Source: a virus. From it: DNA of 31,903 nucleotides. The stretch is taken from positions 1 to 31,903 of the IMG/VR virus record IMGVR_UViG_3300046804_003060. One strand, written 5' to 3'. The notes below the pieces were generated by a model. That model saw only the letters and a list, made by a program, of their open reading frames with translations, searched no databases and was not told the origin of the DNA. The position numbers and the translations under genes are program-made. Shown in pieces: positions 4,497 to 28,942 of the stretch. Numbering within the stretch: position 1 is the first letter of the stretch; every line of letters begins with the position of its first letter.

Positions 4497-4519
4497 AATG
4501 TGCCCCTTGAAGTTTTGGC

Positions 4520-5320: not shown

Positions 5321-5489
5321 TTAACACCTCTTCTTTAATGTTATTAATATTGAGCTTAAAACGTCTGCCTCTCTTCTTAGAAAGTCCCAAAGCCTTTGCG
5401 TATCTATGAATTGTTACAGAACATACCTTGTATTTTTTTGCTAATTCTTTTATAGTTAAATTCTGATAATCTTTTTTAAAGTGTTTCAT
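5313..5489 (-). CDS. Small helix-turn-helix DNA-binding protein, 58 aa
   Basis: A 58-codon frame starts at ATG 5489. Residues about 12-37 (TIKELAKKYKVCSVTIHRYA followed by KALGLS) form a classic helix-turn-helix like the DNA-binding tail of resolvases or MerR/excisionase-type regulators. A basic KKRGRR tail (38-43) and a short C-terminal helix follow. It likely binds DNA as a dimer and regulates phage transcription. The 13-base palindrome TTTTGAGTCAAAA (5489-5501) touches its start codon, which would allow autoregulation. The stop overlaps the 5111-5320 start. The fold call is strong; its targets are inferred. Confidence 0.8.
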   Translation of the reverse strand: MKHFKKDYQNLTIKELAKKYKVCSVTIHRYAKALGLSKKRGRRFKLNINNIKEEVLNG

Positions 5490-5622
5490 TTTGAGTCAAA
5501 AATATATATGCGTTAAGAAAACTAGTAAATAACTTGCTTGATCCATCTTTCCTAGTCGCAGAATAGAGACCAGACGAAAGTAATTGAATCTTTCCATGTT
5601 CATAAATCCAAGTTTGTGTCAT
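5477..5622 (-). CDS. Possible small protein, 48 aa, overlapping the HTH gene
   Basis: A 48-codon frame starts at ATG 5622 with GGAG ten bases upstream and ends with TAA inside the start of the helix-turn-helix gene. The product MTQTWIYEHGKIQLLSSGLY then SATRKDGSSKLFTSFLNAYI looks protein-like. A second frame from ATG 5602 (35 residues), coupled by ATGA to the preceding stop, is also open but has no Shine-Dalgarno and an odd hydrophobic end. I prefer the 48-residue frame because of its ribosome site. Function unknown. Confidence 0.5.
5489..5501. promoter_or_regulatory. Palindromic TTTTGAGTCAAAA box at HTH gene start
   Basis: A 13-base sequence with perfect 6-bp arms around a central G, touching the start codon of the helix-turn-helix gene. 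Its core TTGAGTCAA matches the TTGAGT(A/C)A boxes found at late-gene starts, which makes it a candidate operator. Confidence 0.5.
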
Positions 5623-5791
5623 ATTGTATTTTCTCCAATTGTTTTAATTTTTCTGCACCGAATCTGCCTTTTCTAGCATATTCAGCACGAAAATGTGAGT
5701 TAAACTGTAAAAAATAAAATTCAAATCTGAAATTTTTATCGTTTAACAATTTAGCTATTTCTTTGTCAGTTTGTCTCAATACTTTTTCCAT
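5600..5791 (-). CDS. Hypothetical protein, 63 aa
   Basis: The 63-residue product starts at ATG 5791 with GAGG nine bases upstream, supplied by the end of the glycosyltransferase gene, whose stop is only three bases away. It is helical and charged, with aromatic FRFEFYFLQFNSHFRAEYAR (about 22-41) and a C-terminal KLKQLEKIQYD helix. No domain is recognised and there is no membrane segment or signal. Tight linkage to the glycosyltransferase suggests co-translation, not necessarily a shared function. Confidence 0.65.
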   Translation of the reverse strand: MEKVLRQTDKEIAKLLNDKNFRFEFYFLQFNSHFRAEYARKGRFGAEKLKQLEKIQYDTNLDL

Positions 5792-5794
5792 AAA

Positions 5795-6685
5795 TTACCT
5801 CTTAAATTTAAAAATTCTAATTCCAAAAATTTTAACACGAGTTTCTTTTTTTAAACGTTGCAAATAAAAGATTTTTTTATGCAAAAAAATAATATCAGGT
5901 TTCAAATTCCAATGCTTAAAATCGGAAATAAAACGGCTTATGTGTTTTGTAATTGTCTCTTTTTCTACCGCTCCTACTAATCCATGCCATCTAATTAATT
6001 CACAAACATTATGATTTTCTTTCAATAAAGAAGTTTTCATAACAGGAAATCCAGCACGAGCAAGTTGTTTAAAAAAAGCTTCGCTACACATTGGATTGCC
6101 GACAAAAACTCCTGCCATAAAATTATTTGTCTTAAAACCTAAATTTTCAAAATGTCTTGTAAATTTAAGTTCATATTCCTCAATAATTGCATTTTTTGTG
6201 GGTTGAGCTTTAACTGCCCTAAAATAATCCACAAACTCTTTACTCATAAACATATTTTTTCTAAATACTAAAAAATAACTTTGAAGATGACTAATTCGTA
6301 AAGAATTAGGATTAACTGAACCAAGAGAACGAACAAGCCCCCAAAAATCACAATCATTATTTTTCATTTTTTCAAATACAGGTTCAAAAGAATTGATGCA
6401 ATAACAAGAGTCATTTGCTAAAACTAATTCGTCAATATTAGCAAGTTCATGTTCAATTGCGATCAAGCCTTTTTTCCAGCTTCCAAAATCATACTCACCA
6501 TGCCTGCCAGCAATAACTAGATCAGCTATTGCTTCGACTCTTCTTATTTCTTTTGCTGATAAATCAGAATCAGAAACAAATATGATTTTATCACATACTT
6601 TTGTTAGCTCTAAGAGATACAAGATAACATAGTCATCAACTATATTATCTTTATCGTAATGAGCAAAAATTACAGTTCTTTTCAT
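5795..6685 (-). CDS. RgpF-like glycosyltransferase (rhamnan synthesis protein F family)
   Basis: The 296-residue product matches the core of the RgpF family: FAHYD (7-11), VDDYV (16-20), FVSDSDLS (36-43), EYDFGSWKKGL (64-74), LANDSCY (89-95), DFWGL (113-117) and SHLQSYFLVFRKN (132-144). Members build or modify rhamnose-containing surface polysaccharides from nucleotide sugars on the cytosolic face of the membrane. This copy is only the catalytic core, shorter than streptococcal RgpF, and ends in a basic segment. In a phage early operon it probably alters host or virion-exposed glycans, for example to block superinfection. The family call is strong; sugar and acceptor are unknown. It looks like a cargo gene acquired from bacteria. 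Confidence 0.85.
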   Translation of the reverse strand: MKRTVIFAHYDKDNIVDDYVILYLLELTKVCDKIIFVSDSDLSAKEIRRVEAIADLVIAGRHGEYDFGSWKKGLIAIEHELANIDELVLANDSCYCINSFEPVFEKMKNNDCDFWGLVRSLGSVNPNSLRISHLQSYFLVFRKNMFMSKEFVDYFRAVKAQPTKNAIIEEYELKFTRHFENLGFKTNNFMAGVFVGNPMCSEAFFKQLARAGFPVMKTSLLKENHNVCELIRWHGLVGAVEKETITKHISRFISDFKHWNLKPDIIFLHKKIFYLQRLKKETRVKIFGIRIFKFKR

Positions 6686-6686
6686 A

Positions 6687-7028
6687 TTATTTTAAATTAA
6701 TTACTGAATCATTACCAAACTTGCCAGTTGCAGCGTGAACGCTCATTAATCTTGCTTGATCTATTTCAATTGATTCAATTCTTTTAGCGAAATCAATCAA
6801 GATAAAATCTGCATCTTGTTCTTTTACTATTTGAAGCAATTCACTTGCACCAGCAACTCTATCCCTAGCCGCTAATTCAAGATGGATTTGATAAATCATT
6901 GTTTTATCAACGTTTGAATGTCCAAAAGTTTGACCAAAAGTTTCGTCACAATATCCTTTTCCTTCTAGCTCTTCTAAAACTGTTGAATAAGTTGGTAAAC
7001 TTGAAGCTAAAATGTAAGTTCTTTTCAT
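6687..7028 (-). CDS. Hypothetical protein next to glycosyltransferase, 113 aa
   Basis: The 113-residue product begins MKRTYILASSLPTYSTVLEE, has a mixed alpha/beta pattern with ADFILIDFAKRIESIEID (about 73-90), and ends KFGNDSVINLK. No signal, membrane segment or recognised motif. One base separates it from the RgpF-like gene, and both products begin MKRT, so they were probably acquired or are expressed as a pair. The start context is TAATAATATG without a Shine-Dalgarno. It may be an enzyme partner or a regulator; nothing in the sequence decides this. Confidence 0.65.
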   Translation of the reverse strand: MKRTYILASSLPTYSTVLEELEGKGYCDETFGQTFGHSNVDKTMIYQIHLELAARDRVAGASELLQIVKEQDADFILIDFAKRIESIEIDQARLMSVHAATGKFGNDSVINLK

Positions 7029-7054
7029 ATTATTATTTTATTTAGTTGTTAATA

Positions 7055-7222
7055 TTAATTTCTATTCATACAAATTGTAGGGCTGCACATGATAGAGAAT
7101 CTTTCATGATTCCAATCACAAATTGGTTGATTAACTCCATTGACGCAAGCACAAAAACATGACGCGTTGGCATTACTTGCTAAAGTTAAAGCTAAGATTG
7201 TTGCTAATATTATTTTTTTCAT
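7055..7222 (-). CDS. Secreted cysteine-rich peptide, 55 aa
   Basis: A 55-codon frame starts at ATG 7222. Residues 1-20 (MKKIILATILALTLASNANA) are a textbook Sec signal peptide with an A-N-A cleavage site. The mature 35-residue peptide has six cysteines (22, 24, 26, 35, 46, 51), starting SCFCACVNGV, enough for three disulfides in the periplasm. Small secreted proteins with a similar CxCxCVNG start occur in proteobacteria as I recall, but I cannot name a function. A role in altering the envelope or blocking other phages is possible. The start context is the A-rich leader shared by neighbouring genes. Confidence 0.75.
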   Translation of the reverse strand: MKKIILATILALTLASNANASCFCACVNGVNQPICDWNHERFSIMCSPTICMNRN

Positions 7223-7253
7223 ATTATTTTTTATTTGTTGTTAGTATTAATAG

Positions 7254-7454
7254 TTAAAGTTTTTTAAGAGATTCTAAAACTTGTTTTGAATTTATAATCT
7301 CAAAAACGCTAACATTGTTTTGCATTTTAAGCATGTTGTTTATGCGATGATTAAACTCCATACCTTCTTCATAACTAAGCTTTTCAAAAGCTAAATCTTT
7401 GATTTTGTTCTGTATACGTCTATAAAGTCTAAATTTTGCTGTTTCATTTGGCAT
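7254..7454 (-). CDS. Hypothetical protein, 66 aa
   Basis: The 66-residue product is helical and basic at its N-terminus (AKFRLYRRIQNKIKDLAFEK, about 6-25), with no recognised motif. It begins at ATG 7454 after an A-rich leader (AACTAAGTAAAAAATATG) with no Shine-Dalgarno. Early-arm position right after the leftward promoter suggests a host-takeover or regulatory protein, but that is only position-based. Confidence 0.6.
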   Translation of the reverse strand: MPNETAKFRLYRRIQNKIKDLAFEKLSYEEGMEFNHRINNMLKMQNNVSVFEIINSKQVLESLKKL

Positions 7455-7473
7455 ATTTTTTACTTAGTTGTTG

Positions 7474-7689
7474 TTAATTGACATAAGAAAAATTTGGTGC
7501 TGAAAAAAATAGTAATCCTTTATCATTATATACATTTTCTTCAAAGATAGCTTTTCTTCCAATGTAACCAATCAAATTTTGACCGACTAGCATAAATGTT
7601 TCAGCTTTATTAAAAGCTTTTAATTGTTTATCGCTTAAATTATCAGTTACAATTTTATTTCTTAAGATATTTAAATCGTAAATTTTCAT
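7474..7689 (-). CDS. Hypothetical protein, 71 aa
   Basis: The 71-residue product begins MKIYDLNILRNKIVTDNLSD, has a helical first half and a beta-like second half (LIGYIGRKAIFEENVYND, about 39-56), and no recognised domain. It follows an A-rich leader (AAAAAGTTAATAATATG) and lies 20 bases after the stop of the first early gene. Probably cytosolic. Function unknown. Confidence 0.6.
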   Translation of the reverse strand: MKIYDLNILRNKIVTDNLSDKQLKAFNKAETFMLVGQNLIGYIGRKAIFEENVYNDKGLLFFSAPNFSYVN

Positions 7690-7709
7690 ATTATTAACTT
7701 TTTAAATTA

Positions 7710-7973
7710 TTATTGAGAATAATTGTCAAAAAAACTTATAAGTTTTTTTAATTTTTTAGGCATATCATAAAAATTAGTTGATATTTCAATTTTAACACCA
7801 GGATAATCGCTTGTTATTATAGTCTCTAGTTGAGACATAGAATCAATTGAGATGCGAAAATCTTCAATTACAGTTTTTAAACTTTTTTCGGTTCCAGTTG
7901 CATAAAATACTCCGCTCTTTTTTTCGTTGAGAATATAATTCATTTCTCCGTCACTTAAATTTAAATTTTTCAT
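7710..7973 (-). CDS. First leftward gene, hypothetical, 87 aa
   Basis: The 87-residue product (MKNLNLSDGEMNYILNEKKS...) is mixed alpha/beta and acidic in the middle, ending with a basic helix KKLKKLISFFDNYSQ. No recognised motif, signal or membrane segment. It is the gene closest to the divergent control region, about 43 bases downstream of the expected start of the leftward promoter, so it should be the first phage product made in this direction. First early genes often inhibit host functions, but I have no sequence evidence for that here. Confidence 0.65.
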   Translation of the reverse strand: MKNLNLSDGEMNYILNEKKSGVFYATGTEKSLKTVIEDFRISIDSMSQLETIITSDYPGVKIEISTNFYDMPKKLKKLISFFDNYSQ

Positions 7974-8022
7974 ATTTTTTACTTTTTAAATTATTATCGA
8001 AAGCTCAAACTTTCTGAAAACT

Positions 8023-8051
8023 AATATAAACATGAGTAAACTATTATGCAA
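8023..8051 (-). promoter_or_regulatory. Leftward early promoter
   Basis: Read leftward, TTGCAT (8051-8046) and TATATT (8028-8023) are separated by exactly 17 bases. The start would be near 8016, about 43 bases from the first leftward gene. The spacer contains TTTACTCATG, the reverse complement of the CATGAGTAAA box at 8031-8040, a usual place for a repressor site. Confidence 0.55.
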
Positions 8052-8194
8052 CAATTAATTTATATTTAATTAACAATTATTTAATATTAGTTAAATTATG
8101 TATCAAAAAGAAACAGTGTAAAAATAGTTGATGTTGTGAAGGCTTGATTTTACTATGTGTCAAGTGATAGTTGTAAAAGTGTATCAAAATGAGA

Positions 8195-8222
8195 TTGACA
8201 AAAAAAATAAAGAAAGTATCTT
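8195..8222 (+). promoter_or_regulatory. Candidate rightward promoter
   Basis: Perfect TTGACA (8195-8200), 16-base A-rich spacer, TATCTT (8217-8222). A second TTGACA (8221-8226) overlaps but lacks a good -10. Either could feed the terminase operon. Confidence 0.4.
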
Positions 8223-8261
8223 GACAAATGACTCAAGTTTTGGGGGATTGAGGGGGCAAGC

Positions 8262-8278
8262 AACAAGCTTGTTATACT
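8262..8278 (+). promoter_or_regulatory. Extended -10 promoter overlapped by a 12-base palindrome
   Basis: TG-T-TATACT (8270-8278) is an extended -10 with five of six bases of TATAAT. The perfect palindrome AACAAGCTTGTT (8262-8273) overlaps it, so a bound protein would block it. The start would fall near 8285, giving a leader of about 93 bases before the small terminase. Confidence 0.5.
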
Positions 8279-8297
8279 ACTGCTGTATGCGTTAGTA

Positions 8298-8316
8298 TCG
8301 CAATTGTTGATTGCGA
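8298..8316 (+). other. Leader hairpin upstream of small terminase
   Basis: TCGCAAT (8298-8304) and ATTGCGA (8310-8316) are exact reverse complements with a 5-base loop TGTTG. No T-run follows, so it is more likely an RNA structure or protein site than a terminator. Confidence 0.6.
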
Positions 8317-8364
8317 AAGGAAATATTAATTTTAGCGACCAATGAAATGGCGCGGCAATCAATA

Positions 8365-8373
8365 GAGTAAATG
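8365..8373 (+). promoter_or_regulatory. GAGTAAATG box before small terminase
   Basis: One of several GAGTAAATG boxes placed just before late genes. Its ATG opens a short frame of six codons (MKYVEE) that runs into the terminase gene in another phase and ends at 8389-8391. Confidence 0.4.
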
Positions 8374-8377
8374 AAAT

Positions 8378-8827
8378 ATGTGGAAGAATAGCACGAAGTT
8401 TTCGCAAGAAATATTTGATGAAATATGCGTTAGAATTGCTGAAGGCGAATCATTGCGTAAGATTTGCAAAGATGAGAAGATGCCAAGCTTAGTGGCGGTT
8501 TGGAAATGGTTGAATAATAGCGAAGAATTAGTTAAGCAATACACACGCGCACGCGAAGAACAAGCTGAAACTCTTGTTGATGAAATAATTGACATAAGTG
8601 ATGAAAAAAAAGATGATACTTTTTTAGATAAAGACGGTAATGAAGTAATTAATCACGAAGCTATTGCGCGCAGTCGTTTAAGAGTTGATTCGAGAAAGTG
8701 GATTGCTTCTAAATTAAAGCCAAAAAGATTTGGAGATTACACAAAGATTCAAGCCGAAGTAAAAGACACAAGCTCTACAAGTTCTTGGCTTGGCGAAGTG
8801 TTAAGCGAGATTGATAATAATAAGTAA
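8378..8827 (+). CDS. terS: Terminase small subunit, Sf6 type
   Basis: The 149-residue product matches Sf6 gp1-like small terminases: an N-terminal helix-turn-helix region (EICVRIAEGESLRKICKDEK then MPSLVAVWKWL, about 15-46) that binds the packaging site, YTRAREEQAE (55-64) starting the central oligomerisation helix, and the conserved RLRVDSRKWIASKLKPKRFG (about 100-119) toward the C-terminus. It forms a ring that recognises phage DNA and hands it to the large terminase. It is the first gene of the rightward arm and lies 37 bases ahead of the large subunit. Start ATG 8378 is the first in this frame. Confidence 0.9.
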   Translation: MWKNSTKFSQEIFDEICVRIAEGESLRKICKDEKMPSLVAVWKWLNNSEELVKQYTRAREEQAETLVDEIIDISDEKKDDTFLDKDGNEVINHEAIARSRLRVDSRKWIASKLKPKRFGDYTKIQAEVKDTSSTSSWLGEVLSEIDNNK

Positions 8828-8864
8828 TAACTTAATTTTTGAGAAAATAAAAAAGATCTAAAAA

Positions 8865-10394
8865 ATGGATCAAGAAAGAAGAAGAAAACTGGCTGAACTC
8901 TTGAGCAACAAAGCTTGGCGAATGTCTAATCTTTATTACTGCAAAGATGAGAACGGAAGAGAATTTAAATTTATTTGCAACGAAGCACAAAGTGAATTAA
9001 TAGAAGAAACGCACCCGCTAAACATCATTCTTAAAGCAAGACAATTAGGGATTACAACATTCTACTGCATTAATTATCTTGATGATTGCTTATTCAACTC
9101 AAACATCACAGCAGTCTTGATTGGTGATGATTTAGAAGATGCAAAGAAACTACTAAGAGATAAAGTACGTTATGCTTACGACAGATTGCCGCCAGAAATA
9201 AAAGAACATAGACAACTGATTACTGATAGCACAGAGATAATGCGCTTCAGTAATGGATCAAGCTATTCAGTTACTACATCAGCTCGTTCTGGCACAGTTC
9301 AAAGATTACACATCACAGAATTTGGCAAGATATGCAGGAAGTCACCAGATAAAGCAGAAGAGATAATGTCGGGTTCACTTAACACAGTTCATCAAGGGCA
9401 ACAGATTGTGATTGAAAGCACGGCACAGGGAGCAAGTGGGCATTTCTTTAACATGTGCCAAGTCGCAGAAAGAAAGCTACGAATGAAAGAAGAATTGACT
9501 TCTTTAGACTGGAAGTTCCATTTCTTCGGCTGGTGGAAGGATAAGAAATACAAGATGGCGGCTGATTACATCTTTAACACGAAGCAAGCTGATTACTTTG
9601 CAGAGCTAGAGAACGAAGGGATCTATCTGACGACACAACAACGGACTTGGTATTGCAAGAAAGAAGAAACTCAAGGCGACTTGATGAAGCAAGAGTTTCC
9701 TTCTAACTCAAAAGAAGCATTTCAGAAAGCTATCATCGGTGCTTATTGGTCAAAAGAATTAATTAAAGCGGAACAAGACGGAAGACTCGGAAGAGTAAAC
9801 ATTGACCAATACTTACCAGTGCATACAGCTTGGGATTTGGGAATTAATGACACAACTTGTATCTGGTTCTTTCAGAAGAAAGGCTTCGATTTCTTGATTG
9901 TTGATTACTACGAAATGAGCGAAGAGCCATTGCCGCATTACTTCAAGATTTTGAAAGATAAAAACTATAACTACGGCAATCACTTCGCACCGCATGATAT
10001 TGCAAAGCGTTCATACTACGACGGAAAAGACGGATTAGAGATTGCTAAGAACTTTGGCTTCAGATTTGAGAAAATAACAAGAGCGCAAAACAAAATGGAC
10101 TCAATTAACGAAGCTCGCTCAATCTTAAATCGCTGCTGGTTTGATCAAAAGAGATGTGAAACTGGATTAAGCAGACTAAGAGAGTACAGAAAGAAGTTTA
10201 ATGACAAGTTGGGTTGTTTTATGGATCAACCTCTGCACGATATTAACTCAAATGGCGCAGATGCTTTTCAAACTTTCGCTGCTTCAGTTCATCGCTTAGA
10301 AACTTACAGACAAGAAAACGAAGGTTTTGTCGATGACTGGGCTTATGAAGAGTATTTGAATGCAAGTAATAGAAATTCTATTACTGGGTATTAA
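8865..10394 (+). CDS. terL: Terminase large subunit
   Basis: The 509-residue product is the packaging motor: an N-terminal ATPase pumps DNA into the prohead and a C-terminal RNase H-like nuclease cuts it. Motifs seen: Walker A-type LKARQLGITT (56-65), Walker B-like RLHITEFG (147-154, with the catalytic acid), coupling motif IESTAQG (183-189), nuclease Asp in HTAWDLGINDTT (about 319-330), HDIAKRSYYDGKDG (about 371-385) and C-terminal GADAFQTFA (about 464-472). Length is usual for the family. It starts 37 bases after the small subunit, with only a weak purine stretch as ribosome site. Confidence 0.95.
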   Translation: MDQERRRKLAELLSNKAWRMSNLYYCKDENGREFKFICNEAQSELIEETHPLNIILKARQLGITTFYCINYLDDCLFNSNITAVLIGDDLEDAKKLLRDKVRYAYDRLPPEIKEHRQLITDSTEIMRFSNGSSYSVTTSARSGTVQRLHITEFGKICRKSPDKAEEIMSGSLNTVHQGQQIVIESTAQGASGHFFNMCQVAERKLRMKEELTSLDWKFHFFGWWKDKKYKMAADYIFNTKQADYFAELENEGIYLTTQQRTWYCKKEETQGDLMKQEFPSNSKEAFQKAIIGAYWSKELIKAEQDGRLGRVNIDQYLPVHTAWDLGINDTTCIWFFQKKGFDFLIVDYYEMSEEPLPHYFKILKDKNYNYGNHFAPHDIAKRSYYDGKDGLEIAKNFGFRFEKITRAQNKMDSINEARSILNRCWFDQKRCETGLSRLREYRKKFNDKLGCFMDQPLHDINSNGADAFQTFAASVHRLETYRQENEGFVDDWAYEEYLNASNRNSITGY

Positions 10395-10411
10395 ATGAAA
10401 AAAAGAATTGC

Positions 10412-10503
10412 TTGACATTTTCTTTTTGACACATAATTTATACAAAATCTTGAGTAAATGTATCGAAATGAAACAAAACGCAAAATAACTTTGCTTACTC
10501 AAG
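10412..10503 (+). promoter_or_regulatory. Candidate promoter and inverted CTTGAGTAA repeat at portal start
   Basis: Perfect TTGACA at 10412-10417 with possible -10 elements downstream (CATAAT 10432-10437, TATACA 10439-10444). CTTGAGTAA (10449-10457) and TTACTCAAG (10495-10503) are perfect 9-bp reverse complements flanking the portal start codon (10458) and its first 12 codons. A protein bound here, or an RNA hairpin, could control portal synthesis. Confidence 0.5.
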
Positions 10504-12659
10504 ACGCTGCACAATACTTAGATTTTCAAACTATCTTAAACACAGATAATCTTGCTGAAATATTATCAGAAGAAATGCGTGCGTCTGTTGCGTCAAAAGT
10601 TACTACTCGATACAACACAGATTTACAATCAAGAAGCGAAAAGCAGAAACAGCTTCAAAGCATCATTAAATACGTTCTTTCTCAGTCAGAAAAACGTTCT
10701 TTTCCATTTGAAGGGGCTTCAAATGTTATCTTTCCTTTAATTTCTACCGCTTGTGTTGAGTTTGCCGCTAAGTGCTATCCCGAAATCTTTAAAGATGGAA
10801 ACATCGTAAAAGCTAAGATTATTGGTAATGATGACGGCGAAGTGATGAAAGACGCTGAAGGCAATGAAATGCGTAATGAAGATGGCTCTATTGCTATTTT
10901 AGATGAAACAGGACTGCCAGCAATCCAGAATGTGGGTGCTAAACTTAAGCGCGGTCAAAGAGTTGCAACTGTAATGAATTATCAGTTGAACGAAGAGATC
11001 GAAGGCTTTGAAGAAAACATGGACGCTTTGTTTAATGCTCTAAGCGCATTAGGCACGATGTTTAAAAAAGATTACTACAATTCAGAAGGTAATATTTGCT
11101 CTGACCTAGTTTATCCTGACAAGCTAATCATTAACGATTTTGCGCCTTCTTTCAAAGCCCCTGTAACTCATATCATCGAGAAATACCCGCAAGACGTAGT
11201 TTCTTCGATCCGTTCTGGTGATTATATTGATTTTGATTTTGACCCTGAAGCACAAGACACAGCAGCTTTTGACAATTCTTTAGATGAGAATGACGATAAA
11301 AAAACAGGTGATGAGGCTTCTGCTGGCTTAGTAGTATTCTTGGAGCAGCACACTTGGATTGACTTAGATAATGACGGCTATGCTGAACCTTACATTGCGG
11401 TGGTGCATAAAGCATCTGGCAAGCTTGTTAAGTTAGTTAAACGCTTCTACGAGAAAGATGTTAAAAAGAATAAGAAAGGTGAAATTCAGTGCATCGAAGC
11501 AATCAACTTCTTTGTTAAATATATCTTCATTCCTTCGCCAGATGGTTCGTTTTATGGTATTGGTTTAGGTCACTTACTATTCAATGTTAACTCAGCAATT
11601 AATAGTTCAATCAACCAATTAACGGACGCGGGGACATTACAAAACACAGGTGGCGGATTTATTTCTAAATCTCTCAATATCTCTGGTGGCATGAAGCCTT
11701 TCCGTCCTGCTGAATGGAAGACGTGCGATTCTTTTGGTGGTAATATTCGTGACGCAGTTGTCCCACTTCCAGTGCCAGAACCTTCACAAACTCTATTCGT
11801 GTTGATGCAGTTTTTAGTTAATGCCGGTAAAGAACTAGGAAGCTTAAGAGATGTTTTGACGGGTGAAAATGCAGGAAACATTGCTGCTACTACCTACATG
11901 GGAATGGCTGAACAGAGCCAAAAACAGTTTAAAGCTGTATTCATGAGAATTTATAATTCTCTAAAGCAGGAAATTAAAATTTTCTATGAGTTAGATTCTC
12001 AATACCTTCCTCAAAAAAAATACGCTGAAATCTTAGACATTAAATTATTTGAAAGCCCAAGTGTAAAAGAAGACTTCTCGCTAAAAGGTTATGATATTGT
12101 GCCAGTAGCGAATCCGGAAAATGTAATTTCAATGCAGAAGTTTGCTAAGGCTCAATTCTTAATGGGTTTCATTGGCTCGCCTATGGTTGACCAATTCTTA
12201 TTACACAGAACAGTATTTGAAACTGCTGGCATCGAAAACTTTGATAAATTCATTATTCAACCACAGCCACAACAAGATCCGTCTGTTCAAATTGCCGCAG
12301 CTCAAGAAGAAACTAAGCGACTCAAAATACAATCTGACGCTCAAATAGAAACTGCTAGATTAGAGTTAGAGCAAATCGAGCTTCAGAAAAACTCGGCCAA
12401 AGCTGATTCTGAGGTATTAGTAAACTACGCTCAAGCTGGCAAATTGGTAAAAGATACCGAGATGGCAGAAACAAAAGAGAAATTAGATGTCTTGGACAAC
12501 ATGATTGATGCCGAGACCAAACAAAATAAAATGCAAGACCGCAAAGAAGAAAGAAGATTTAAAGCGGCAGTAGAGCTAGCAAAGCTAGAGAATCAGCAAG
12601 TCCAAGCTCCTTCAACCAAAAATAAAACTGAGGAAAACGAGACCTCCGCTGATGATTAA
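10458..12659 (+). CDS. Portal protein, P22-like
   Basis: The 733-residue product forms the dodecameric portal at one capsid vertex through which DNA enters and leaves. N-terminal landmarks of P22-type portals are visible: SFPFEGASNVIFPLISTACV (about 75-94) then EFAAKCYPEIFKDG, KRGQRVATVMNYQLNEEIEG (about 164-183) and LFNALSALGTMFKKDYY. The tail region (about 610-720) is Gln/Glu/Lys-rich coiled coil, like the long barrel helix of P22 portal; length is close to P22 gp1 (725). The ATG sits inside a TGAGTAAATG box, and no other in-frame ATG precedes the conserved region. It is the first gene of its transcription unit. Confidence 0.9.
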   Translation: MYRNETKRKITLLTQDAAQYLDFQTILNTDNLAEILSEEMRASVASKVTTRYNTDLQSRSEKQKQLQSIIKYVLSQSEKRSFPFEGASNVIFPLISTACVEFAAKCYPEIFKDGNIVKAKIIGNDDGEVMKDAEGNEMRNEDGSIAILDETGLPAIQNVGAKLKRGQRVATVMNYQLNEEIEGFEENMDALFNALSALGTMFKKDYYNSEGNICSDLVYPDKLIINDFAPSFKAPVTHIIEKYPQDVVSSIRSGDYIDFDFDPEAQDTAAFDNSLDENDDKKTGDEASAGLVVFLEQHTWIDLDNDGYAEPYIAVVHKASGKLVKLVKRFYEKDVKKNKKGEIQCIEAINFFVKYIFIPSPDGSFYGIGLGHLLFNVNSAINSSINQLTDAGTLQNTGGGFISKSLNISGGMKPFRPAEWKTCDSFGGNIRDAVVPLPVPEPSQTLFVLMQFLVNAGKELGSLRDVLTGENAGNIAATTYMGMAEQSQKQFKAVFMRIYNSLKQEIKIFYELDSQYLPQKKYAEILDIKLFESPSVKEDFSLKGYDIVPVANPENVISMQKFAKAQFLMGFIGSPMVDQFLLHRTVFETAGIENFDKFIIQPQPQQDPSVQIAAAQEETKRLKIQSDAQIETARLELEQIELQKNSAKADSEVLVNYAQAGKLVKDTEMAETKEKLDVLDNMIDAETKQNKMQDRKEERRFKAAVELAKLENQQVQAPSTKNKTEENETSADD

Positions 12660-12668
12660 TATTAATAA

Positions 12669-12692
12669 ATTTGAGTAATTCATGAGTCAAAT
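12669..12692 (+). promoter_or_regulatory. TGAGTAA/TGAGTCA inverted repeat around a start codon
   Basis: ATTTGA (12669-12674) and TCAAAT (12687-12692) are reverse complements enclosing the start codon at 12682. The arms belong to TGAGTAA (12672-12678) and TGAGTCA (12683-12689), related to the other boxes in this phage. Confidence 0.35.
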
Positions 12693-12954
12693 CGAAATGA
12701 AAGAGTTAAAGGATTGGTTAAACGATCCTGCAGCACTAAAGTTTAAGAAAATTTTATTAAATTCTCGCGCTAAATTGTTAAACAACATAAGTCAAGGTTA
12801 TCTTAAGTCAGATGGGTCATTTAAAAAAGATTCTATCTTAAGCAATCTCGGTGAGTGTTTAGCAATGAAAGATATTTCTAATTTTTTTGGCAACAAAGAC
12901 GAAGCCGTTTTAGAGAATTTACTAAAGGTTTTTTATGGAGGTGAGAATGAGTAA
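12682..12954 (+). CDS. Hypothetical protein between portal and co-chaperonin, 90 aa
   Basis: The 90-residue product is helical, with ELKDWLNDPAALKFKKILLN (about 8-27), a short basic patch, and a C-terminal DEAVLENLLKVFYGGENE. It ends overlapping the GroES-like gene by 8 bases and carries that gene's Shine-Dalgarno (GGAGGTGAG). No family recognised. Place between portal and scaffold suggests a head-assembly or minor virion role, which is inference. Start ATG 12682 is enclosed by an inverted repeat. Confidence 0.7.
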   Translation: MSQIEMKELKDWLNDPAALKFKKILLNSRAKLLNNISQGYLKSDGSFKKDSILSNLGECLAMKDISNFFGNKDEAVLENLLKVFYGGENE

Positions 12955-13309
12955 GAGAAAAAGCAATCTTAACACCTCTGGGTATAAAGTGCCTGAGTTT
13001 AGAATTTTGATTTTACCTGAAGTTGTAGAAGAAAAAACTTCTGGTGGAATTATCATACCAGAAACAATCAAAGACGATCTACAAGGAGCTAAAACACTTG
13101 CTACGATTGTTGATATTGGTGAAAAAGCTTTTGACCAAGGAACTGATAGAGAATGGAAAGAAAAGCCTAAAGTAGGCGATAAGGTTCTTATCCCTTCTTA
13201 TGAAGGTTATAGGTTAAACAAAGACCAGACCAAAGATGGTAAAGAATACAGAATCATTCTTGATCGTCATATCTTAGCAATTCAAACAAGTGAGGAAATA
13301 TGCCGGTAA
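12947..13309 (+). CDS. GroES-like (Cpn10) co-chaperonin
   Basis: The 120-residue product matches the Cpn10 fold: FRILILPEVVEEKTSGGIII (about 17-36) is the first strand plus the mobile loop, with the hydrophobic III before P that docks on GroEL; GDKVLIPSYEGY and a closing DRHILAI complete the barrel. It would cap host GroEL so that the coat protein folds, as T4 gp31 does. I choose ATG 12947, after a strong GGAGGTGAGA, over an in-frame ATG four codons upstream. It overlaps the preceding gene by 8 bases and the scaffold gene by 10. It is longer than GroES (97). Confidence 0.9.
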   Translation: MSKRKSNLNTSGYKVPEFRILILPEVVEEKTSGGIIIPETIKDDLQGAKTLATIVDIGEKAFDQGTDREWKEKPKVGDKVLIPSYEGYRLNKDQTKDGKEYRIILDRHILAIQTSEEICR

Positions 13310-14274: not shown

Positions 14275-14287
14275 TTGAGGTAAAAAC

Positions 14288-14818: not shown

Positions 14819-14823
14819 AACAT

Positions 14824-15435: not shown

Positions 15436-15460
15436 TATTAACTCTAAATTAAAATAAATC

Positions 15461-16366: not shown

Positions 16367-16392
16367 TATCAACTATTGTCCTAATGGGTAAA

Positions 16393-16411: not shown

Positions 16412-16431
16412 ACAATTAAATTCAAATACTT

Positions 16432-17130: not shown

Positions 17131-17139
17131 GAGCAAAAC

Positions 17140-17787: not shown

Positions 17788-17788
17788 T

Positions 17789-18266: not shown

Positions 18267-18267
18267 T

Positions 18268-18749: not shown

Positions 18750-18752
18750 ATT

Positions 18753-18851
18753 ATGAAAAAGAAACCAGTAAAATCAGAAAAAAAATCAATGAAACAATCA
18801 ATGAAACATATGAAAAAATGTGGAACTAAAAAAGGCGGAAAGAAGAAATAA
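18753..18851 (+). CDS. Very basic 32-residue peptide
   Basis: A 32-codon frame from ATG 18753, three bases after the ParB-like stop: MKKKPVKSEKKSMKQSMKHM then KKCGTKKGGKKK. About half the residues are lysine, with KSMKQSMKHMKK as a short repeat and one Cys-Gly. Such charge suggests binding to DNA or to acidic proteins, perhaps inside the head. The position in a compact gene series supports coding; the small size and A-rich DNA leave doubt. Confidence 0.55.
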   Translation: MKKKPVKSEKKSMKQSMKHMKKCGTKKGGKKK

Positions 18852-18853
18852 TT

Positions 18854-18939
18854 CTTGCTTTATAAAAAATTATATTAATAATTAAGGCAATATTTGAGTA
18901 AATGATGATTGCTGACGAAAAACACTCAGATATTTATGG
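18854..18939 (+). promoter_or_regulatory. Promoter and TGAGTAAATG leader of the ejection operon
   Basis: CTTGCT (18854-18859) with an AATAAT -10 candidate about 17 bases on, then TGAGTAAATG (18895-18904), a partner ACTCA (18924-18928), AAAAACA (18918-18924) and TATTTATGG at the start codon. The same order of elements occurs before the 28939 fibre gene. Breaks in gene coupling (85 bases) mark a new transcription unit. Confidence 0.5.
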
Positions 18940-22830: not shown

Positions 22831-24272
22831 TGGCACAAAGATTTTTAGAACCAATTAATAGAATTTTTACAAATGCTGGATTGGTTGGAGTTGGTTATAA
22901 ATATTATTTTTACCAAACAGGAACAACAACACCAGTCACAACTTATCAAGATGACGGATTAAGCGTTGCAAATACAAATCCCGTTGTTTCGGATTCAAAT
23001 GGTCGTTTTCCTGAGATTTGGTATTCTGATTTGTCTCAACTAAAATTAATTGTAAAAGATTCTTCTGATAATACCCTAGAGACAGTTGACCCAGTTGGCG
23101 CAACCGCTTCTGCTGTTTCTCTTAATGACTTTGATGTCCGTCCAACTTCTTACTGGGGTTTAACCGCTGGAACTTCAACAGCTTATACTCTAGTTGCCAG
23201 TCCGACTATTAGTGCTTACGCTAACACCCAAACTTTTATTGTCCAATTTCATACTGATTGCGGTGATAATCCAACTTTAGCAATTGATGGCTTATCTGCT
23301 TTTGCTCTTAAGAAATACACTCAGCAAGGCACAAAGGTTGCATTAAAAGCAAATGATGCAAGAGCGAATCAGAGATATTTATGCTATAATGACGGAGTGG
23401 ATATTATTGTTTCTAATCCATCTTCTTTACCTATTTTATCAGGCTCTGCAACTGCTTTAACTATTGCAACTGGTGCAGTAACTTTAACTAATAATTCTAG
23501 TTCTTATTCAATAGATACAGAAGGAGCTGCTGCAAGCGATGATTTAGACACTATAAGTGGCGGGCAAGATGGACAAGTTATTTTTATTCGCTCAACTGCT
23601 GATGCAAGGAATGTTGTGTTAAAACATAATACAGGAAACATTTATAATCCTAATGTTTTTGATATTACATTAGACCTAACTACCGATTTTGTTGTTTTAA
23701 GATATAACTCTGCAGCGGTAAAATGGATTGTTGTTTCTATTGCCGTCCTTGGATCTTCACCATATCAACTGATATCCACTGCTACCGCATCTAGCTCTTC
23801 ATCAATTAGTTTTACAAACTTAAATTCTAATTTTTCTAAATATGTTGTTGAGTTTCAATATATAGTTCCAGTTTCAAATTCTTATTTTTCAGCAAGATTG
23901 AGTACAGATAATGGCTCAAGTTACATTTCAGCAAATTATTTAAATGGTAATGTGTTTGGATCAAACGCAGATGTTCCGTCTGGAGGAGCTGTACCAATTG
24001 ATAGGATTAATTTGTCAATAAGCTCTGTCAACATGATAAATACTTCTACTAAAGGATACTGTGGAAGATTAGAAATTTTTAATCCATCTAATACAGCTAA
24101 TCATAAAATCTGTAGAACATCTGGCAATTATACTAATGCCAGTGGAAATATTACCTACGTAGAAAATGTTTCAATATATACTGGAGCTACAAGTGCTGTT
24201 AATGCAATTCAATTCTTTTTTTCAACTGGAAACATATCTTCAGGAACATTTAAACTTTATGGAATAAAATAA
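22830..24272 (+). CDS. Tail fibre/tailspike-like receptor-binding protein, 480 aa
   Basis: The N-terminal domain (about 1-90) has the phage fibre attachment pattern GYKYYFYQTGTTTPVTTYQD (22-41), then ANTNPVVSDSNGRFPEIWYS (47-66), which docks on the virion. The middle is a Thr/Ser/Asn-rich beta region with LYNDGVDIIVSN-type strands. The C-terminus ends AVNAIQFFFSTGNISSGTFKLYGIK-like, split here as NAIQFFFSTGNISSGTFKLY then GIK, a common receptor-binding tip. No enzyme motif seen. It is followed two bases later by a chaperone-like gene, as usual for fibres. Confidence 0.8.
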   Translation: MAQRFLEPINRIFTNAGLVGVGYKYYFYQTGTTTPVTTYQDDGLSVANTNPVVSDSNGRFPEIWYSDLSQLKLIVKDSSDNTLETVDPVGATASAVSLNDFDVRPTSYWGLTAGTSTAYTLVASPTISAYANTQTFIVQFHTDCGDNPTLAIDGLSAFALKKYTQQGTKVALKANDARANQRYLCYNDGVDIIVSNPSSLPILSGSATALTIATGAVTLTNNSSSYSIDTEGAAASDDLDTISGGQDGQVIFIRSTADARNVVLKHNTGNIYNPNVFDITLDLTTDFVVLRYNSAAVKWIVVSIAVLGSSPYQLISTATASSSSSISFTNLNSNFSKYVVEFQYIVPVSNSYFSARLSTDNGSSYISANYLNGNVFGSNADVPSGGAVPIDRINLSISSVNMINTSTKGYCGRLEIFNPSNTANHKICRTSGNYTNASGNITYVENVSIYTGATSAVNAIQFFFSTGNISSGTFKLYGIK

Positions 24273-24273
24273 T

Positions 24274-24606
24274 ATGACTCAAGATGAAATAAAACTACAA
24301 CCGCACAAAATGGTTAATGGGATAGCGGTTCTTTTAACAGAGAATGAAATTGCCGAGTTTAATAAATTGCAAACAGAACATTTATTAAATCAGTTAAGCT
24401 TACAAAAACAGTTAAAAATAACTCAATGCCAAAAATATCTTAACGAAACTGATTGGTATATTATTAAAATGTCTGACCCAAGCAATGTTTCTATTGTGCC
24501 TGAGAATATTCTTATTAACAGATCTAACGCGAGGACTTGGCAGAAAGATATCAATACTTGCACAACTTTAGAAGAACTTAACAACATTAACATTAATTTT
24601 AATTAA
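24274..24606 (+). CDS. Tail fibre assembly chaperone-like protein, 110 aa
   Basis: The 110-residue product contains QKYLNETDWYIIKMSDPSNV (about 49-68) followed by SIVPENILINRSNARTWQKD (69-88). The pattern YLxxTDWYxI(R/K)...P...xxRxxAR..xxxI is common to small proteins encoded right after tail fibres, many of which help fibres fold or trimerise. The N-terminal half is helical. The position, two bases after a fibre and two before the gp4-like gene, supports the call; the exact client is not proved. Confidence 0.7.
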   Translation: MTQDEIKLQPHKMVNGIAVLLTENEIAEFNKLQTEHLLNQLSLQKQLKITQCQKYLNETDWYIIKMSDPSNVSIVPENILINRSNARTWQKDINTCTTLEELNNININFN

Positions 24607-24607
24607 A

Positions 24608-25546
24608 ATGGCTGTTTCAGGAACTAATACATTTTCACAAACAAGAAACGACATAATTAATAGAGCTTTGTCAATTCTTGGCGTTAAGACTCGTGGAAGA
24701 GCTTTAACTTCAGAAGAGGTAAACGAAGCTTCTGATGCTTTAAATTTGTTTGTAAAAGGTCTTAAAAGCGAAGGTGTTTATCTTTGGAAATACGCCGAAG
24801 GAACTTTGTTTTTAACCGTAGGACAAGAAAGTTACATTTTAGATGGATCAACTGCTAACGCTACTGAATCATTCACACAAACAACTACAAGTGCAGCAGC
24901 GGTAAGTGGAGCAACTTCAATTCCGGTTACAAGCGCAACTGGTTTTACTATTGGGTATAATATTGGCATTATGCAAGACGATGGTGATTTACATTGGACA
25001 ACCATTTCTAACATTGTAGGAACGACAATAAGCTTAACAGCAGCTTTGACTGATGATGTTTCAAGTGGAGCAACTGTTTATGTTTATCAAACTAAAATTA
25101 CACGCCCCGAAGTTATCACCTCTGCACGCCGCAGGGATTCGTCAGATTATGATACTCCTTTAAATGAGCTTGCCAGAAGTGATTATTTTAATTTAGCTCA
25201 AAAAACAATATCAGGACAGCCAACACAATTTTATTATGATAAGCAGTTAAGCTCAGGAACTATTTATCTATACCAAGCCCCTGATGATGCTTCTAATACG
25301 ATTAAATTCACTTTTCAAAAAATGTTTTTTGATTTTACCGCTGGAACTGATAATCCTGATTTCCCTATTGAATGGGCTGAAACTTTAGCTTTTGGATTAG
25401 CTTCTCGTTTATCTTATGATTATGGTATTGATAAAACAAAAGCAGAATTAATCAAGAGAACTGCTGATGAAATGCTGCGTAATTTAAAAGGTTATGATAG
25501 AGAGGAGTCAATTTATTTTGTGCCAACTTATAATTTATATCAATAA
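24608..25546 (+). CDS. Tail adaptor, P22 gp4-like
   Basis: The 312-residue product starts with a helical domain typical of P22 gp4-type portal adaptors: TRNDIINRALSILGVKTRGR (12-31), LTSEEVNEASDALNLFVKGL (33-52), then KYAEGTLFLTVGQESYILDG. It joins the portal to the tail and seals packaged DNA. Residues about 85-155 form a Thr/Ser-rich beta insert (GATSIPVTSATGFTIGYNIG and on), making it longer than P22 gp4 (166). The C-terminal WAETLAFGLASRLSYDYGID is also family-like. Coupled by TAATG to the gp10-like gene. Any muralytic activity known for gp4 is untested here. Confidence 0.85.
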   Translation: MAVSGTNTFSQTRNDIINRALSILGVKTRGRALTSEEVNEASDALNLFVKGLKSEGVYLWKYAEGTLFLTVGQESYILDGSTANATESFTQTTTSAAAVSGATSIPVTSATGFTIGYNIGIMQDDGDLHWTTISNIVGTTISLTAALTDDVSSGATVYVYQTKITRPEVITSARRRDSSDYDTPLNELARSDYFNLAQKTISGQPTQFYYDKQLSSGTIYLYQAPDDASNTIKFTFQKMFFDFTAGTDNPDFPIEWAETLAFGLASRLSYDYGIDKTKAELIKRTADEMLRNLKGYDREESIYFVPTYNLYQ

Positions 25547-26964
25547 TGCAACAAATACATTTTGGCGTAAACTCATATAAAGCAAAAAGTGGCTTAATTT
25601 CAGCAGAAAGAATGGTGAATTGCTACGTTGAAATAACGCCGCAAACCAGCCCCTTCCCTAACATGGTTTTAGGAACTGCTGGGCTTACAGTCTGGAAAGA
25701 TACTGGTGTTTCTTTACCTGTTTATGGAATGCGAGTAATGGGCGAAAATCTTTATGTGGTAGTTGGAAACAAAGTCTATAAAATAGACTCAACAAAAACA
25801 ATGACACTTTTAGGTGAAATTGCTACTACTATTGGGCAAGTTATAATGACTGATAACGGCGACCAAGTTACAATTGAGTTACCAAGTGGGACAACTTATT
25901 ACTGCACTTCAACCGCCTCTTCTCTTACTGAAATTACTAATGGTGAATTTAGTGATTCAGGTTCTGTTACGACTTTAGATGGCTTTACTATCTCAGCTCT
26001 TTTAAATTCAAATGAATTTCAATGGTCAGATGTCAATCAAACAGAAAATTGGAGTGCTTTAAATGCTGCTACTGTAGAAGCAAATTCTTCTAAAATAGTT
26101 AGAGTTTATCAAAATAACTTAGAACTTTGGTTCTTTAAAGAAGATATTACGCAGGTTTATTATAATACTGGTTCAGGAAGCCCTTTATTTCAAAGAAAAG
26201 AAGGTGTTTATATTGAGAAAGGTTGCGCTTCTAAATATTCAGTTGCTACTTTAGATAATTCTTTTTTCTTTTTAGGTAACGATAGATTGGTTTATCAGAC
26301 CGTAGGTTATCAATTAAAACCTATCTCGACCTTTCCTATCTCGCAAGAAATTGAGACTTACACAACAATTAATGACGCTATTGGATTTACCTACATTCAA
26401 GATGGACATAAATTTTATTGTTTAAATTTTCCAACTGAAAATAAAACATGGGAATATGATATTACAACTGAATTATGGCATGAAAGAGAAAGTGTTAATA
26501 ATTCTGGCGTTGATGGAAGGTGGAGAGCTAACTGCCACGCTTATTTTGCAGGCAAAAACCTAATTGGTGATTTTGAGACTGGTATTATTTATGAATTAGA
26601 CCCTGATGTTTACACCGAAAACGAAACGGTAATTAAAAGAGAAGTTATTGGGACGACAATGTTTAAAAACTTTGCAAGAATGTCTATAAATAAGTTTGTT
26701 GTTGTAATGGATACCGGAGTCGGAATCGCTACTGGTCAAGGCTCAGATCCTCAGTTAATGGGAAGATTCTCATTAGACGGAGGAAAAGTTTATACCAATG
26801 AATTATGGCAACCAATTGGAGCGCAGGGTTCATTCTTAACTGAAGTATTTTGGACAAAAGTTTGTGGCAAAACTCGTTCTTTTATTGCCAAACTAAACTA
26901 CAGCGAGCCAACTAAATTTCAGATTGTTGGTGCTTTTGTGGAGGTTGAATCAGAAGATGATTAA
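25546..26964 (+). CDS. Tail hub/packaged-DNA stabilisation protein, P22 gp10-like
   Basis: The 472-residue product is the same length as P22 gp10 and similar in pattern: VNCYVEITPQ near the start (about 27-36), beta-propeller-like repeats, FQWSDVNQTENWSALNAATV (about 165-184), LELWFFKEDITQVYYNTGSG (about 199-218) with FQRKEGVYIEKGCAS, and CLNFPTENKTWEYDI. It forms the hexameric hub below the gp4-like adaptor, where fibres and the tail tip attach. It starts in the TAATG overlap with gp4-like and overlaps the next gene by 8 bases. Confident on family. Confidence 0.87.
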   Translation: MQQIHFGVNSYKAKSGLISAERMVNCYVEITPQTSPFPNMVLGTAGLTVWKDTGVSLPVYGMRVMGENLYVVVGNKVYKIDSTKTMTLLGEIATTIGQVIMTDNGDQVTIELPSGTTYYCTSTASSLTEITNGEFSDSGSVTTLDGFTISALLNSNEFQWSDVNQTENWSALNAATVEANSSKIVRVYQNNLELWFFKEDITQVYYNTGSGSPLFQRKEGVYIEKGCASKYSVATLDNSFFFLGNDRLVYQTVGYQLKPISTFPISQEIETYTTINDAIGFTYIQDGHKFYCLNFPTENKTWEYDITTELWHERESVNNSGVDGRWRANCHAYFAGKNLIGDFETGIIYELDPDVYTENETVIKREVIGTTMFKNFARMSINKFVVVMDTGVGIATGQGSDPQLMGRFSLDGGKVYTNELWQPIGAQGSFLTEVFWTKVCGKTRSFIAKLNYSEPTKFQIVGAFVEVESEDD

Positions 26965-27259
26965 CCTTCCAAATATTCAACAACCTATTGAGGAAAACGG
27001 AATTGTAAAGCCCGAATGGAATACTTTTTTTCAACAAATCAAATCAACTATTAAATCTGATTTAACTATTGATATTGGCGTGCCTAATGCTTTAGAGCCA
27101 ATAGCAGACAAAGAAGGGATCGTTAATAGAACTTGGTATTCGTTTTTTGAAAAAAGCTATTCTTCAACAGGAGCTACCTTTGGAATTCCTTCTTCTCAAG
27201 AAAAGATAGGAAAACAATGGAATAATTTTTTTCAAAATATGTATCAAGAATTAAAATAA
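26957..27259 (+). CDS. Small tail protein with three PI..GIV..W..FF repeats, 100 aa
   Basis: I start at ATG 26957, overlapping the hub gene by 8 bases; an upstream in-frame start would lengthen the overlap. The 100-residue product has three degenerate copies of a motif: NIQQPIEENGIVKPEWNTFF (6-25), ALEPIADKEGIVNRTWYSFF (about 45-64) and SSQEKIGKQWNNFFQNMY (about 79-96). Single copies of P-I-x-x-x-G-x-x-x-x-x-W-x-x-F-F are common in phage tail proteins. It occupies the place of the P22 tail needle gp26 but lacks gp26's long coiled coil. Probably a tail-tip or connector protein. Confidence 0.7.
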   Translation: MINLPNIQQPIEENGIVKPEWNTFFQQIKSTIKSDLTIDIGVPNALEPIADKEGIVNRTWYSFFEKSYSSTGATFGIPSSQEKIGKQWNNFFQNMYQELK

Positions 27260-27260
27260 T

Positions 27261-28853
27261 ATGACCTTATCATTAATCACAAACTCTGTATCAAAGGCGC
27301 AATTAGATTCTGGCAAGCCCCAAGCTTTGAGTTGCACCCAAGAAGGTCAGCTCGAGGTGTCATTGCGTGATCCAATCTTACCTTTTGGTTCTCTTCATGT
27401 TGAAAATATGACACCTATTTTTCAAAGTGATGCAGTTTATGGGATTAACCAACAACAAACATTAGCTACAACATCAGGCACGGGAACGGCAACAACAAGT
27501 GATTCTTTGTTTGTAGCTACTACTGGCACAACAGCACTATCCCAAGGTGTAATTCAAAGTAGAAAAAGATTAAGGTATCGCGCGGGACAAGGCGTTATCG
27601 CTCGCTTTACAGCTAAATTCACCGCTCCAGTTGCTTATTCTTACCAATTAGCCGGTTTAGGTCATGCAGAAGATGGGATTTATGTAGGGTATGCAGATGT
27701 TGCTGGTAGCGTTCCTGAATTTGGGATTTTATATGTAAATCGTGGCGTTAGAGAAACCAGAACTTTAACAGTCACAACAGGCGCAACAAGTGCCGCTAAC
27801 TGCACAATCACTTTAAATGGCGTTGCTTTTACTGTAGCTTTAACAGCCGCTTCTAATATTCAAAGAACAGTTTACGAAATCTCGCAGGCAACTTATGCAG
27901 GTTGGGACGCTTACTCTGCGGGAGCAACAGTTGTATTTGTTAGAAAATCTTCTGGCACAGCTTCTGGCACTTATTCTTTTGGAGCTGGAACGACAGGCGC
28001 AGCGGCAACAATTGCCCAAACAAAAGCTGGCGTTGCCTCAACCGATACTTTTATTCCGCGGTCGACTTGGAATGGAGATAAACTAAACGGCACAGGTGAT
28101 TCTGGTTTAACTATTGACCCAACCAAGTTAAATATTTTCCAAATATCATTTGGATATTTAGGGACTGATTCAATCGTCTTTAAATGTAAATTAAGCCCTA
28201 CAAATGGCAACAATTCAACATGGATCACTTTTCACACAATTAGATTGTCCAATTCCTTAACCACCACAACTTTTGGCAATCCTTCTTTCCCTTTTACCTT
28301 GGCTGCATATTCAGCAGGAAGCACAACTAATTTAACAGTTAATAGCGCATCTTTTGCTGGATTCATTGAAGGGCAAAAGTTTTTACACGCCGGAAGATTC
28401 TCTTATTTTAATTCATTAACAACAGTCGGAGCAACTAACTTCCAAGCTTTATTTACCATAATGAACACTCGCTACTACAAAGGCAGAGCAAATCAAGCTG
28501 TGATTAATATTTTAAGTGCCTCAGGAGCATTAAAACACACTTCGCCTTGTATTTTCTATTTGATTAAAAACGGAACTCTTGCAGGCAATCCAAACTTCCA
28601 AGTACTAACAACTGATTCTTGTTCAGTCTGGGACACCGCCGCAACAACGGTTTCTTACACCAATGGCTACCAATTACTTTGGACTGGTCATTTAGGAGAT
28701 ACAGGAGAGTTAGACCACCATTTTGGAAACGGTTCTTACAATGCAGAAGAAATAACTTTACAACCAGGCGAATGGGTTACTTTAGCTGCTCGCGCAGCGA
28801 CTGGAACTCCTTCTTATGTAACTGGTTCAATTAATACAAGAGAGGATCAATAA
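27261..28853 (+). CDS. Putative virion surface/receptor-binding protein, 530 aa
   Basis: The 530-residue product is beta-rich and Thr/Ser/Gly-rich. The N-terminal part has FGSLHVENMTPIFQSDAVYG (about 37-56); then KRLRYRAGQGVIARFTAKFT (about 103-122), which resembles proteins of phage and large-virus surfaces. Residues about 168-275 form a repeat-like module (TLTVTTGATSAANCTITLNG, then a YAGWDAYSAGATVVFVRKSS segment) seen in varied virion proteins. The C-terminal third has ALKHTSPCIFYLIKNGTLAG and a final ALAAR-like strand. No catalytic motif. It starts one base after the preceding stop. A receptor-binding role is inferred. Confidence 0.65.
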   Translation: MTLSLITNSVSKAQLDSGKPQALSCTQEGQLEVSLRDPILPFGSLHVENMTPIFQSDAVYGINQQQTLATTSGTGTATTSDSLFVATTGTTALSQGVIQSRKRLRYRAGQGVIARFTAKFTAPVAYSYQLAGLGHAEDGIYVGYADVAGSVPEFGILYVNRGVRETRTLTVTTGATSAANCTITLNGVAFTVALTAASNIQRTVYEISQATYAGWDAYSAGATVVFVRKSSGTASGTYSFGAGTTGAAATIAQTKAGVASTDTFIPRSTWNGDKLNGTGDSGLTIDPTKLNIFQISFGYLGTDSIVFKCKLSPTNGNNSTWITFHTIRLSNSLTTTTFGNPSFPFTLAAYSAGSTTNLTVNSASFAGFIEGQKFLHAGRFSYFNSLTTVGATNFQALFTIMNTRYYKGRANQAVINILSASGALKHTSPCIFYLIKNGTLAGNPNFQVLTTDSCSVWDTAATTVSYTNGYQLLWTGHLGDTGELDHHFGNGSYNAEEITLQPGEWVTLAARAATGTPSYVTGSINTREDQ

Positions 28854-28859
28854 AAAACT

Positions 28860-28942
28860 CTTGACTTTTTTATCAACTAAACAATCATCAATTTTATGAG
28901 TAAATGTAAAAAGATGATGCAAAAACATTTACTTATTTATGG
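28860..28942 (+). promoter_or_regulatory. Promoter and TGAGTAAATG/CATTTACTTA leader of the fibre operon
   Basis: CTTGAC (28860-28865) with only a weak -10 (AATCAT near 28883), then TGAGTAAATG (28897-28906) and its near-perfect inverted partner CATTTACTTA (28926-28935, 9 of 10). AAAAACA (28921-28927) and TATTTATGG at the start match the ejection operon leader. The ATG of the box is followed at once by TAA. Confidence 0.5.

Follow-up and report, generated by a model that had tools for sequence, protein, structure and literature searches.

A conserved box in the hairpin leaders of late phage genes as a candidate cis-acting RNA element

The control of late genes in tailed phages is usually attributed to sigma factors, activators or antiterminators. 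Here we describe a short box, TGAGTAAATG, that recurs ahead of late genes in an uncultivated aquatic phage lineage, in which a shared transcription regulator was not found. The lineage is represented by the IMG/VR virus record IMGVR_UViG_3300046804_003060, which was analysed over its whole length of 31.9 kb (positions 1 to 31,903, hereafter the window). The explanation that we favour, with a probability of roughly 0.55, is that the box acts in cis as an RNA element. It would be a weakened, ribosome-site-like UUGAGUAA(AUG), gated by a hairpin and located at or near the 5' ends of the late mRNAs. If this is true, a fixed 5' arm combined with independently evolved 3' arms would provide a compact means for the post-transcriptional co-regulation of several late blocks.

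Conservation of the box ahead of late genes

The late genes of the window have matches in protein families for terminase, portal, head, DNA ejection and tail fibre; the leftward arm encodes a DnaB-like helicase together with a DnaD-like loader. TGAGTAAATG occurs three times, always on the + strand, at 10451-10460, 18895-18904 and 28897-28906. The chance expectation is 0.08 copies, using a second-order Markov model of the window and both strands. A first-pass annotation of the sequence had placed copies at these positions, at the starts of the portal, ejection and fibre units, and had expected well under one by chance; it was correct on both points. When one mismatch is permitted there are 9 matches against 4.1 expected, a number that is near chance and is reached by 3 of 100 shuffles. 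This count is unconvincing from the window alone, therefore relatives were used to decide.

Loci were retrieved with the portal, head-closure and fibre proteins (48, 34 and 3 loci, respectively). The comparison set consists of the window and 18 contigs taken essentially whole, 19 records and 614 kb in all. These carry 46 exact copies of TGAGTAAATG on the late strand and none on the other, while a reversed-pattern control gave one. When the distribution between intergenic and coding DNA is checked, all 46 copies are intergenic and each lies ahead of a gene start. Three leaders hold most of them: that of the portal gene, that of the lead gene of the ejection block and that of the fibre gene. A small number are located inside operons. 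The box is conserved in 17 distinct portal leaders. This conservation in relatives strongly supports the idea of a recurring regulatory box at the control points of late genes. An exact trans-encoded antisense copy was also considered and was rejected, as no record has one on the opposite strand.

The element is confined to the late arm; it had been proposed for both arms. Four further sites had been included as members. The sequence GAGTAAATG is indeed found at 8365-8373, but relatives do not retain it before terS and we have rejected it as a box. The palindrome TTTTGAGTCAAAA at 5489-5501 is likewise present as written, but the adjoining gene, for a 58-aa helix-turn-helix protein (HTH58), is found in 0 of the 18 relatives. 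At 8229, TGACTCAAG is present and is not retained in the aligned relatives, so this site was rejected too. For the copy at 8031 no conservation was found. The pair near 12671 is present as written, and 12671 is a conserved copy, yet it is located at a gene start within an operon. A separate conserved non-coding region occupies 8200-8365, between the two arms, and the 8229 site is at its left edge; the region has the core ACTACTGCTGTATGCGTTAGT and a TTGACA upstream. It is shared with L004, L011 and G015, lies in the opposite orientation in G010, and has the appearance of either a structured RNA gene or a long leader of terS.

Scans of 2.9 million viral contigs with hairpin patterns recovered leader-like sites only in contigs that match the proteins of this phage group. 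A wider viral spread was rejected; matches elsewhere lack the leader context and many of these resemble coding sequence. The box thus appears to be restricted to this phage lineage. A search of the whole window with Rfam 15 matched no leader to a curated covariance model. Among GTDB genomes, the sole related contig (L127, L128/L129; G019:C121) is in the metagenome-assembled genome (MAG) 'Proteobacteria bacterium WB5_3A_111', and the two boxes on it match the G006 boxes. This MAG is a possible lead to the host, although a bin is an unproven host.

Hairpins, promoters and start codons of the box leaders

In the portal, ejection and fibre leaders a partner that is complementary to the box lies 20-55 nt downstream, and in most of these a stem of 7-14 bp can form. 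The existence of inverted partners had been noted before, and in the window they pair over 10 bp (portal), 11 bp with one G.U (ejection) and 12 bp with one G.U (fibre). The features of these leaders, all on the + strand, are as follows.

10412..10439, +, predicted promoter of the portal unit (TTGACA 10412-10417; weak -10-like TAATTT 10434-10439)
10450..10460, +, portal box TTGAGTAAATG, serving as the hairpin 5' arm (arm TCTTGAGTAA, 10448-10457), conserved in relatives
10458, +, ATG of the portal box, in frame with portal
10480-10484/10490-10494, +, inner stem GCAAA/TTTGC, which stacks beside the portal 3' arm
10491, +, alternative portal start TTG
10495..10504, +, 3' arm of the portal hairpin, TTACTCAAGA (minimum free energy -14.8, z -4.6)
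12670..12684, +, box copy TTTGAGTAATTC, directly 5' of ATG 12682 of the 90-aa gene after portal; promoterless, in the position of a ribosome site
18855..18882, +, predicted promoter of the ejection leader (TTGCTT 18855-18860; AATAAT 18877-18882)
18889..18904, +, ejection 5' arm AATATTTGAGT (18889-18899) and box TTGAGTAAATG (18894-18904)
18924..18934, +, 3' arm of the ejection hairpin, ACTCAGATATT, followed by the likely gene start ATG 18936
28861..28888, +, predicted promoter of the fibre unit (TTGACT 28861-28866; AATCAT 28883-28888)
28896..28909, +, fibre 5' arm ATGAGTAAATGT with box TGAGTAAATG (28897-28906); a TAA stop comes immediately after the box ATG (28904-28909)
28925..28936, +, 3' arm of the fibre hairpin, ACATTTACTTAT (folding z -3.1); fibre start ATG 28939

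The stems are stronger than those formed with shuffled downstream sequence at 33 of the 46 sites for the 95% level, and at 28 of 46 for the 99% level; the remaining 13 stems fall under the 95% level. Mean folding z-scores are -2.6 for portal and -2.5 for fibre leaders. Such a conserved stem, with complementarity above chance, is what would be expected of a structured 5' leader RNA. The three 3' arms are mutually unrelated in sequence and they pair with different box positions, about -3 to +6 at portal, about -4 to +4 at ejection and 0 to +10 at fibre. Exchanging the 5' flanks between leaders shortens the stem (own versus foreign flanks in the two ejection types, 7.2 versus 1.7 and 13.2 versus 3.3). 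G.U pairs are present in the stems and are frequent in that of the fibre leaders. Because the partner pairs with differing parts of the box, includes G.U pairs and tends to vary together with the flanks, we read it as the arm of an RNA stem and not as a second half-site in DNA. The MAFFT alignment misplaced the 3' arms of the ejection leaders, and this alignment was excluded from counting.

Promoter-like sequences are found at a regular distance. Of 56 hairpin leaders, 46 have the pattern TTG[AC]H at -47 to -33 relative to the box, compared with 5 matches in two control windows per site, and in the portal leaders alone the counts are 15/17 and 0/34. The -35-like element precedes the box by about 36-45 nt. 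The -10 hexamers of the box leaders are poor. Judged by this promoter spacing, the box is predicted to occupy about +1 to +11 of the late mRNA. At portal in G002 and L015 a tRNA gene supplants the promoter-like stretch, and the box remains. A tRNA gene (called Ile, with the unusual anticodon AAT) ends a few nucleotides before the portal box at L009:3542-3624, L008:3093-3175 and L015:2212-2294. A strong, terminator-like inverted repeat of 9-11 bp was seen by eye directly 5' of the ejection leader in G004 (~11370-11425) and G005 (~26290-26345).

The position of start codons ties the box to translation. Hairpin and promoter-like element are both missing from four exact copies; these are at a start codon or a few nucleotides before it, right after the stop of the preceding gene. 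Similarly, leaders of the gene that starts at 12682 in the window carry TGAGTAA or TGAGTGA just 5' of the ATG in nearly all of 26 distinct homologues, again without a promoter. As these promoterless copies are at start codons within operons, action at the RNA level is favoured. The main gene of a hairpin leader has its start codon some 35-43 nt past the box, or as far as 50 nt in one group, and by our reading of the sequence these starts lack a good Shine-Dalgarno sequence. An immediate stop follows the ATG of the box in 22 of 23 fibre leaders, which read ATGTAA or ATGTAG, and in each of the four leaders of the second ejection type. In the first ejection type this ATG begins a short frame. At portal it usually shares the frame of the gene; in G005 and L015 the frame of the box ATG ends in a stop codon.

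Where NGAGTAA closely precedes an ATG, the early strand has G as N in 28 of 38 cases and the late strand has T in 66 of 90. The late box therefore reads like the ribosome-site context of the phage itself, with GGAG apparently altered to UGAG. Pairing of at least 4 bp with the anti-Shine-Dalgarno sequence at normal spacing was not found for the box: read from the sequence, it matches CCUCC through GAG alone, 3 nt away from its AUG, and spacing is normal only at copies of the 12682 type. The anti-Shine-Dalgarno sequence was taken from the 16S rRNA of a metagenome bin, which is not a proven host. Direct pairing of the box with this 16S rRNA was rejected, with only G.U-rich matches of 7-9 bp.

Some neighbouring genes deserve mention. 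In 17 of 18 relatives the ejection leader is followed by a gene of ~160-180 aa (DCFNLPVMAEKY...). The window is without it, and its ejection leader directly precedes the ejection gene (18905-18936). The head operon of the window contains a gene for a GroES-like co-chaperonin (12935-13309; Pfam Cpn10, E 8.9e-12). This gene is retained in 9 of 9 large genomes compared and is annotated as GroES in Alcaligenes phage OK172329. In the early arm, the genes at 3957-4544 and 5795-6685 resemble PDDEXK nucleases weakly and RgpF-type rhamnan synthesis proteins clearly.

Weighing the explanations

We propose that in the folded late mRNA the hairpin hides the box and restrains initiation. The ribosome or another factor would then engage the box and its AUG, the hairpin would open and the main start would be used. 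The box AUG could take different forms for this purpose: a start-stop AUGUAA in the fibre leaders, a short overlapping frame in the ejection leaders and often an in-frame start at portal. The 5'-terminal stem may additionally protect the mRNA.

The 58-aa helix-turn-helix protein had been suggested as a reader of the box. This is unsupported; none of the 18 relatives that carry the box has its gene (best tblastn E ~1), and therefore it is not a general reader. A leftward regulator common to the near-complete genomes was not found either, and the sole leftward gene that they share is the DnaB-like helicase. We infer from these two results that the reader is more likely a host component; the trans-acting partner may be the host ribosome. 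A broader version of this proposal is a translational programme that spans the lineage. In this programme early genes would use GGAGUAA sites, the leading late genes would carry UGAGUAA locked in 5' hairpins, and a single factor or ribosome state would switch the late units jointly after transcription. We consider this broader version rather unlikely.

Several observations weigh against the RNA reading. The ejection leaders of the first type fold only modestly, with a mean z of -1.0. Pooled flank pairing in portal and ejection leaders (54/84 versus 38.8 permuted, with 0 of 5000 permutations reaching 54) speaks for the RNA stem, but the permutation ignores relatedness. Covariation within families is weak, about 2% for ejection and not above shuffles for fibre (142 of 500), where the box is invariant. 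One sister group is without the portal box; it retains the fibre box and has TTGAGTAAATAG at the ejection leader. The frame of the box ATG relative to the main gene is inconstant. Homologous copies of the box dominate the late TGAGTAA count, which is a pattern rather than a set of independent events. Finally, the regular spacing of the -35 element also suits a role in transcription.

That last point leads to the view that the box is a DNA operator or promoter element, a duplex site at about +1 to +11 bound by a phage or host regulator, with the inverted partner as the second half-site. Poor -10 hexamers would fit an activated promoter of this type. However, the copies at start codons within operons are promoterless, the partner matches differing parts of the box in each leader while the flanks tend to co-vary, and no regulator is common to the near-complete relatives. 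We regard a DNA operator as unlikely. Of the operator/activator regulon described in the first-pass annotation, the regulatory kind is retained, while the level at which it acts is more likely RNA than DNA. Another view is that the 5'-terminal stem solely protects late mRNA from 5'-end-dependent decay and that the identity of the box is secondary. This is consistent with the predicted 5'-end position, with the 7-14 bp stems of most leaders and with the sister-group portal leaders, which by eye have a different short inverted repeat, AATTAT..ATAATT, in the place of the box. A pure stabiliser would allow both arms to drift jointly, whereas the 5' arm is nearly invariant across leaders and genomes and hairpin-free copies occur. 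This makes protection alone distinctly unlikely.

The 13 stems under the 95% level, together with the fact that GAGTAA..ATG is a frequent start context in these phages, would be expected if the box were an ordinary ribosome-site sequence with chance inverted partners. The 28 stems that reach the 99% level do not fit this, and the main genes of hairpin leaders start about 40 nt on, beyond the distance of a ribosome site; we find this explanation very unlikely. A cassette of promoter and stem-loop at module borders, which aids recombination between phages in the manner of the promoter early stem loops (PeSLs) discussed below, would account for the promoter-like element and stem at the borders of blocks. 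It would also suit the variation among relatives of the fibre gene and of the gene after the ejection leader. But the common part is only ~11 nt and the remainder is specific to its place, and the copies within operons have no cassette, making this role highly improbable.

Comparison with known systems

The minigenes of the lambda bar type are very short open frames. The AUG-UAA of the fibre leaders is similar, as is an AUG-AUA-UGA at two hairpin-free copies. A difference is that the putative short frames described here belong to a conserved leader.

The PeSLs of T4-like phages (Arbiol 2010; Comeau 2014), as cited in PMC4503421 and PMC3950731, are promoter early stem loops or promoter-terminator motifs that are dense in shuffling regions; the exchange of modules is the use that defines them. 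From these citations the likeness is that a promoter (here a predicted one) and a stem-loop are repeated in one phage genome between gene modules. The box leaders differ from PeSLs so described in that the stem heads late blocks, with a near-invariant 11-mer as the 5' arm and a 3' arm specific to each place.

The GGAG Shine-Dalgarno sites of T4 early mRNAs are cleaved by RegB (PMC3014915). These share with the late box a GAG core in a ribosome-site context, with a one-base difference between early and late (GGAG in early sites, UGAG in the late box), which is a lead only; a nuclease like RegB was not identified here, where no search aimed at one was made. The gene 43 hairpin of T4/RB69 lies ~40 nt upstream of the start codon (PMC3014915). 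Like this hairpin and the gene 32 site, the box leader has a predicted RNA structure in a position to affect translation initiation, and would work like a leader RNA. The gene 43 and gene 32 operators each act on a single gene, whose own product binds them (PMC3014915), whereas here one box serves several late units.

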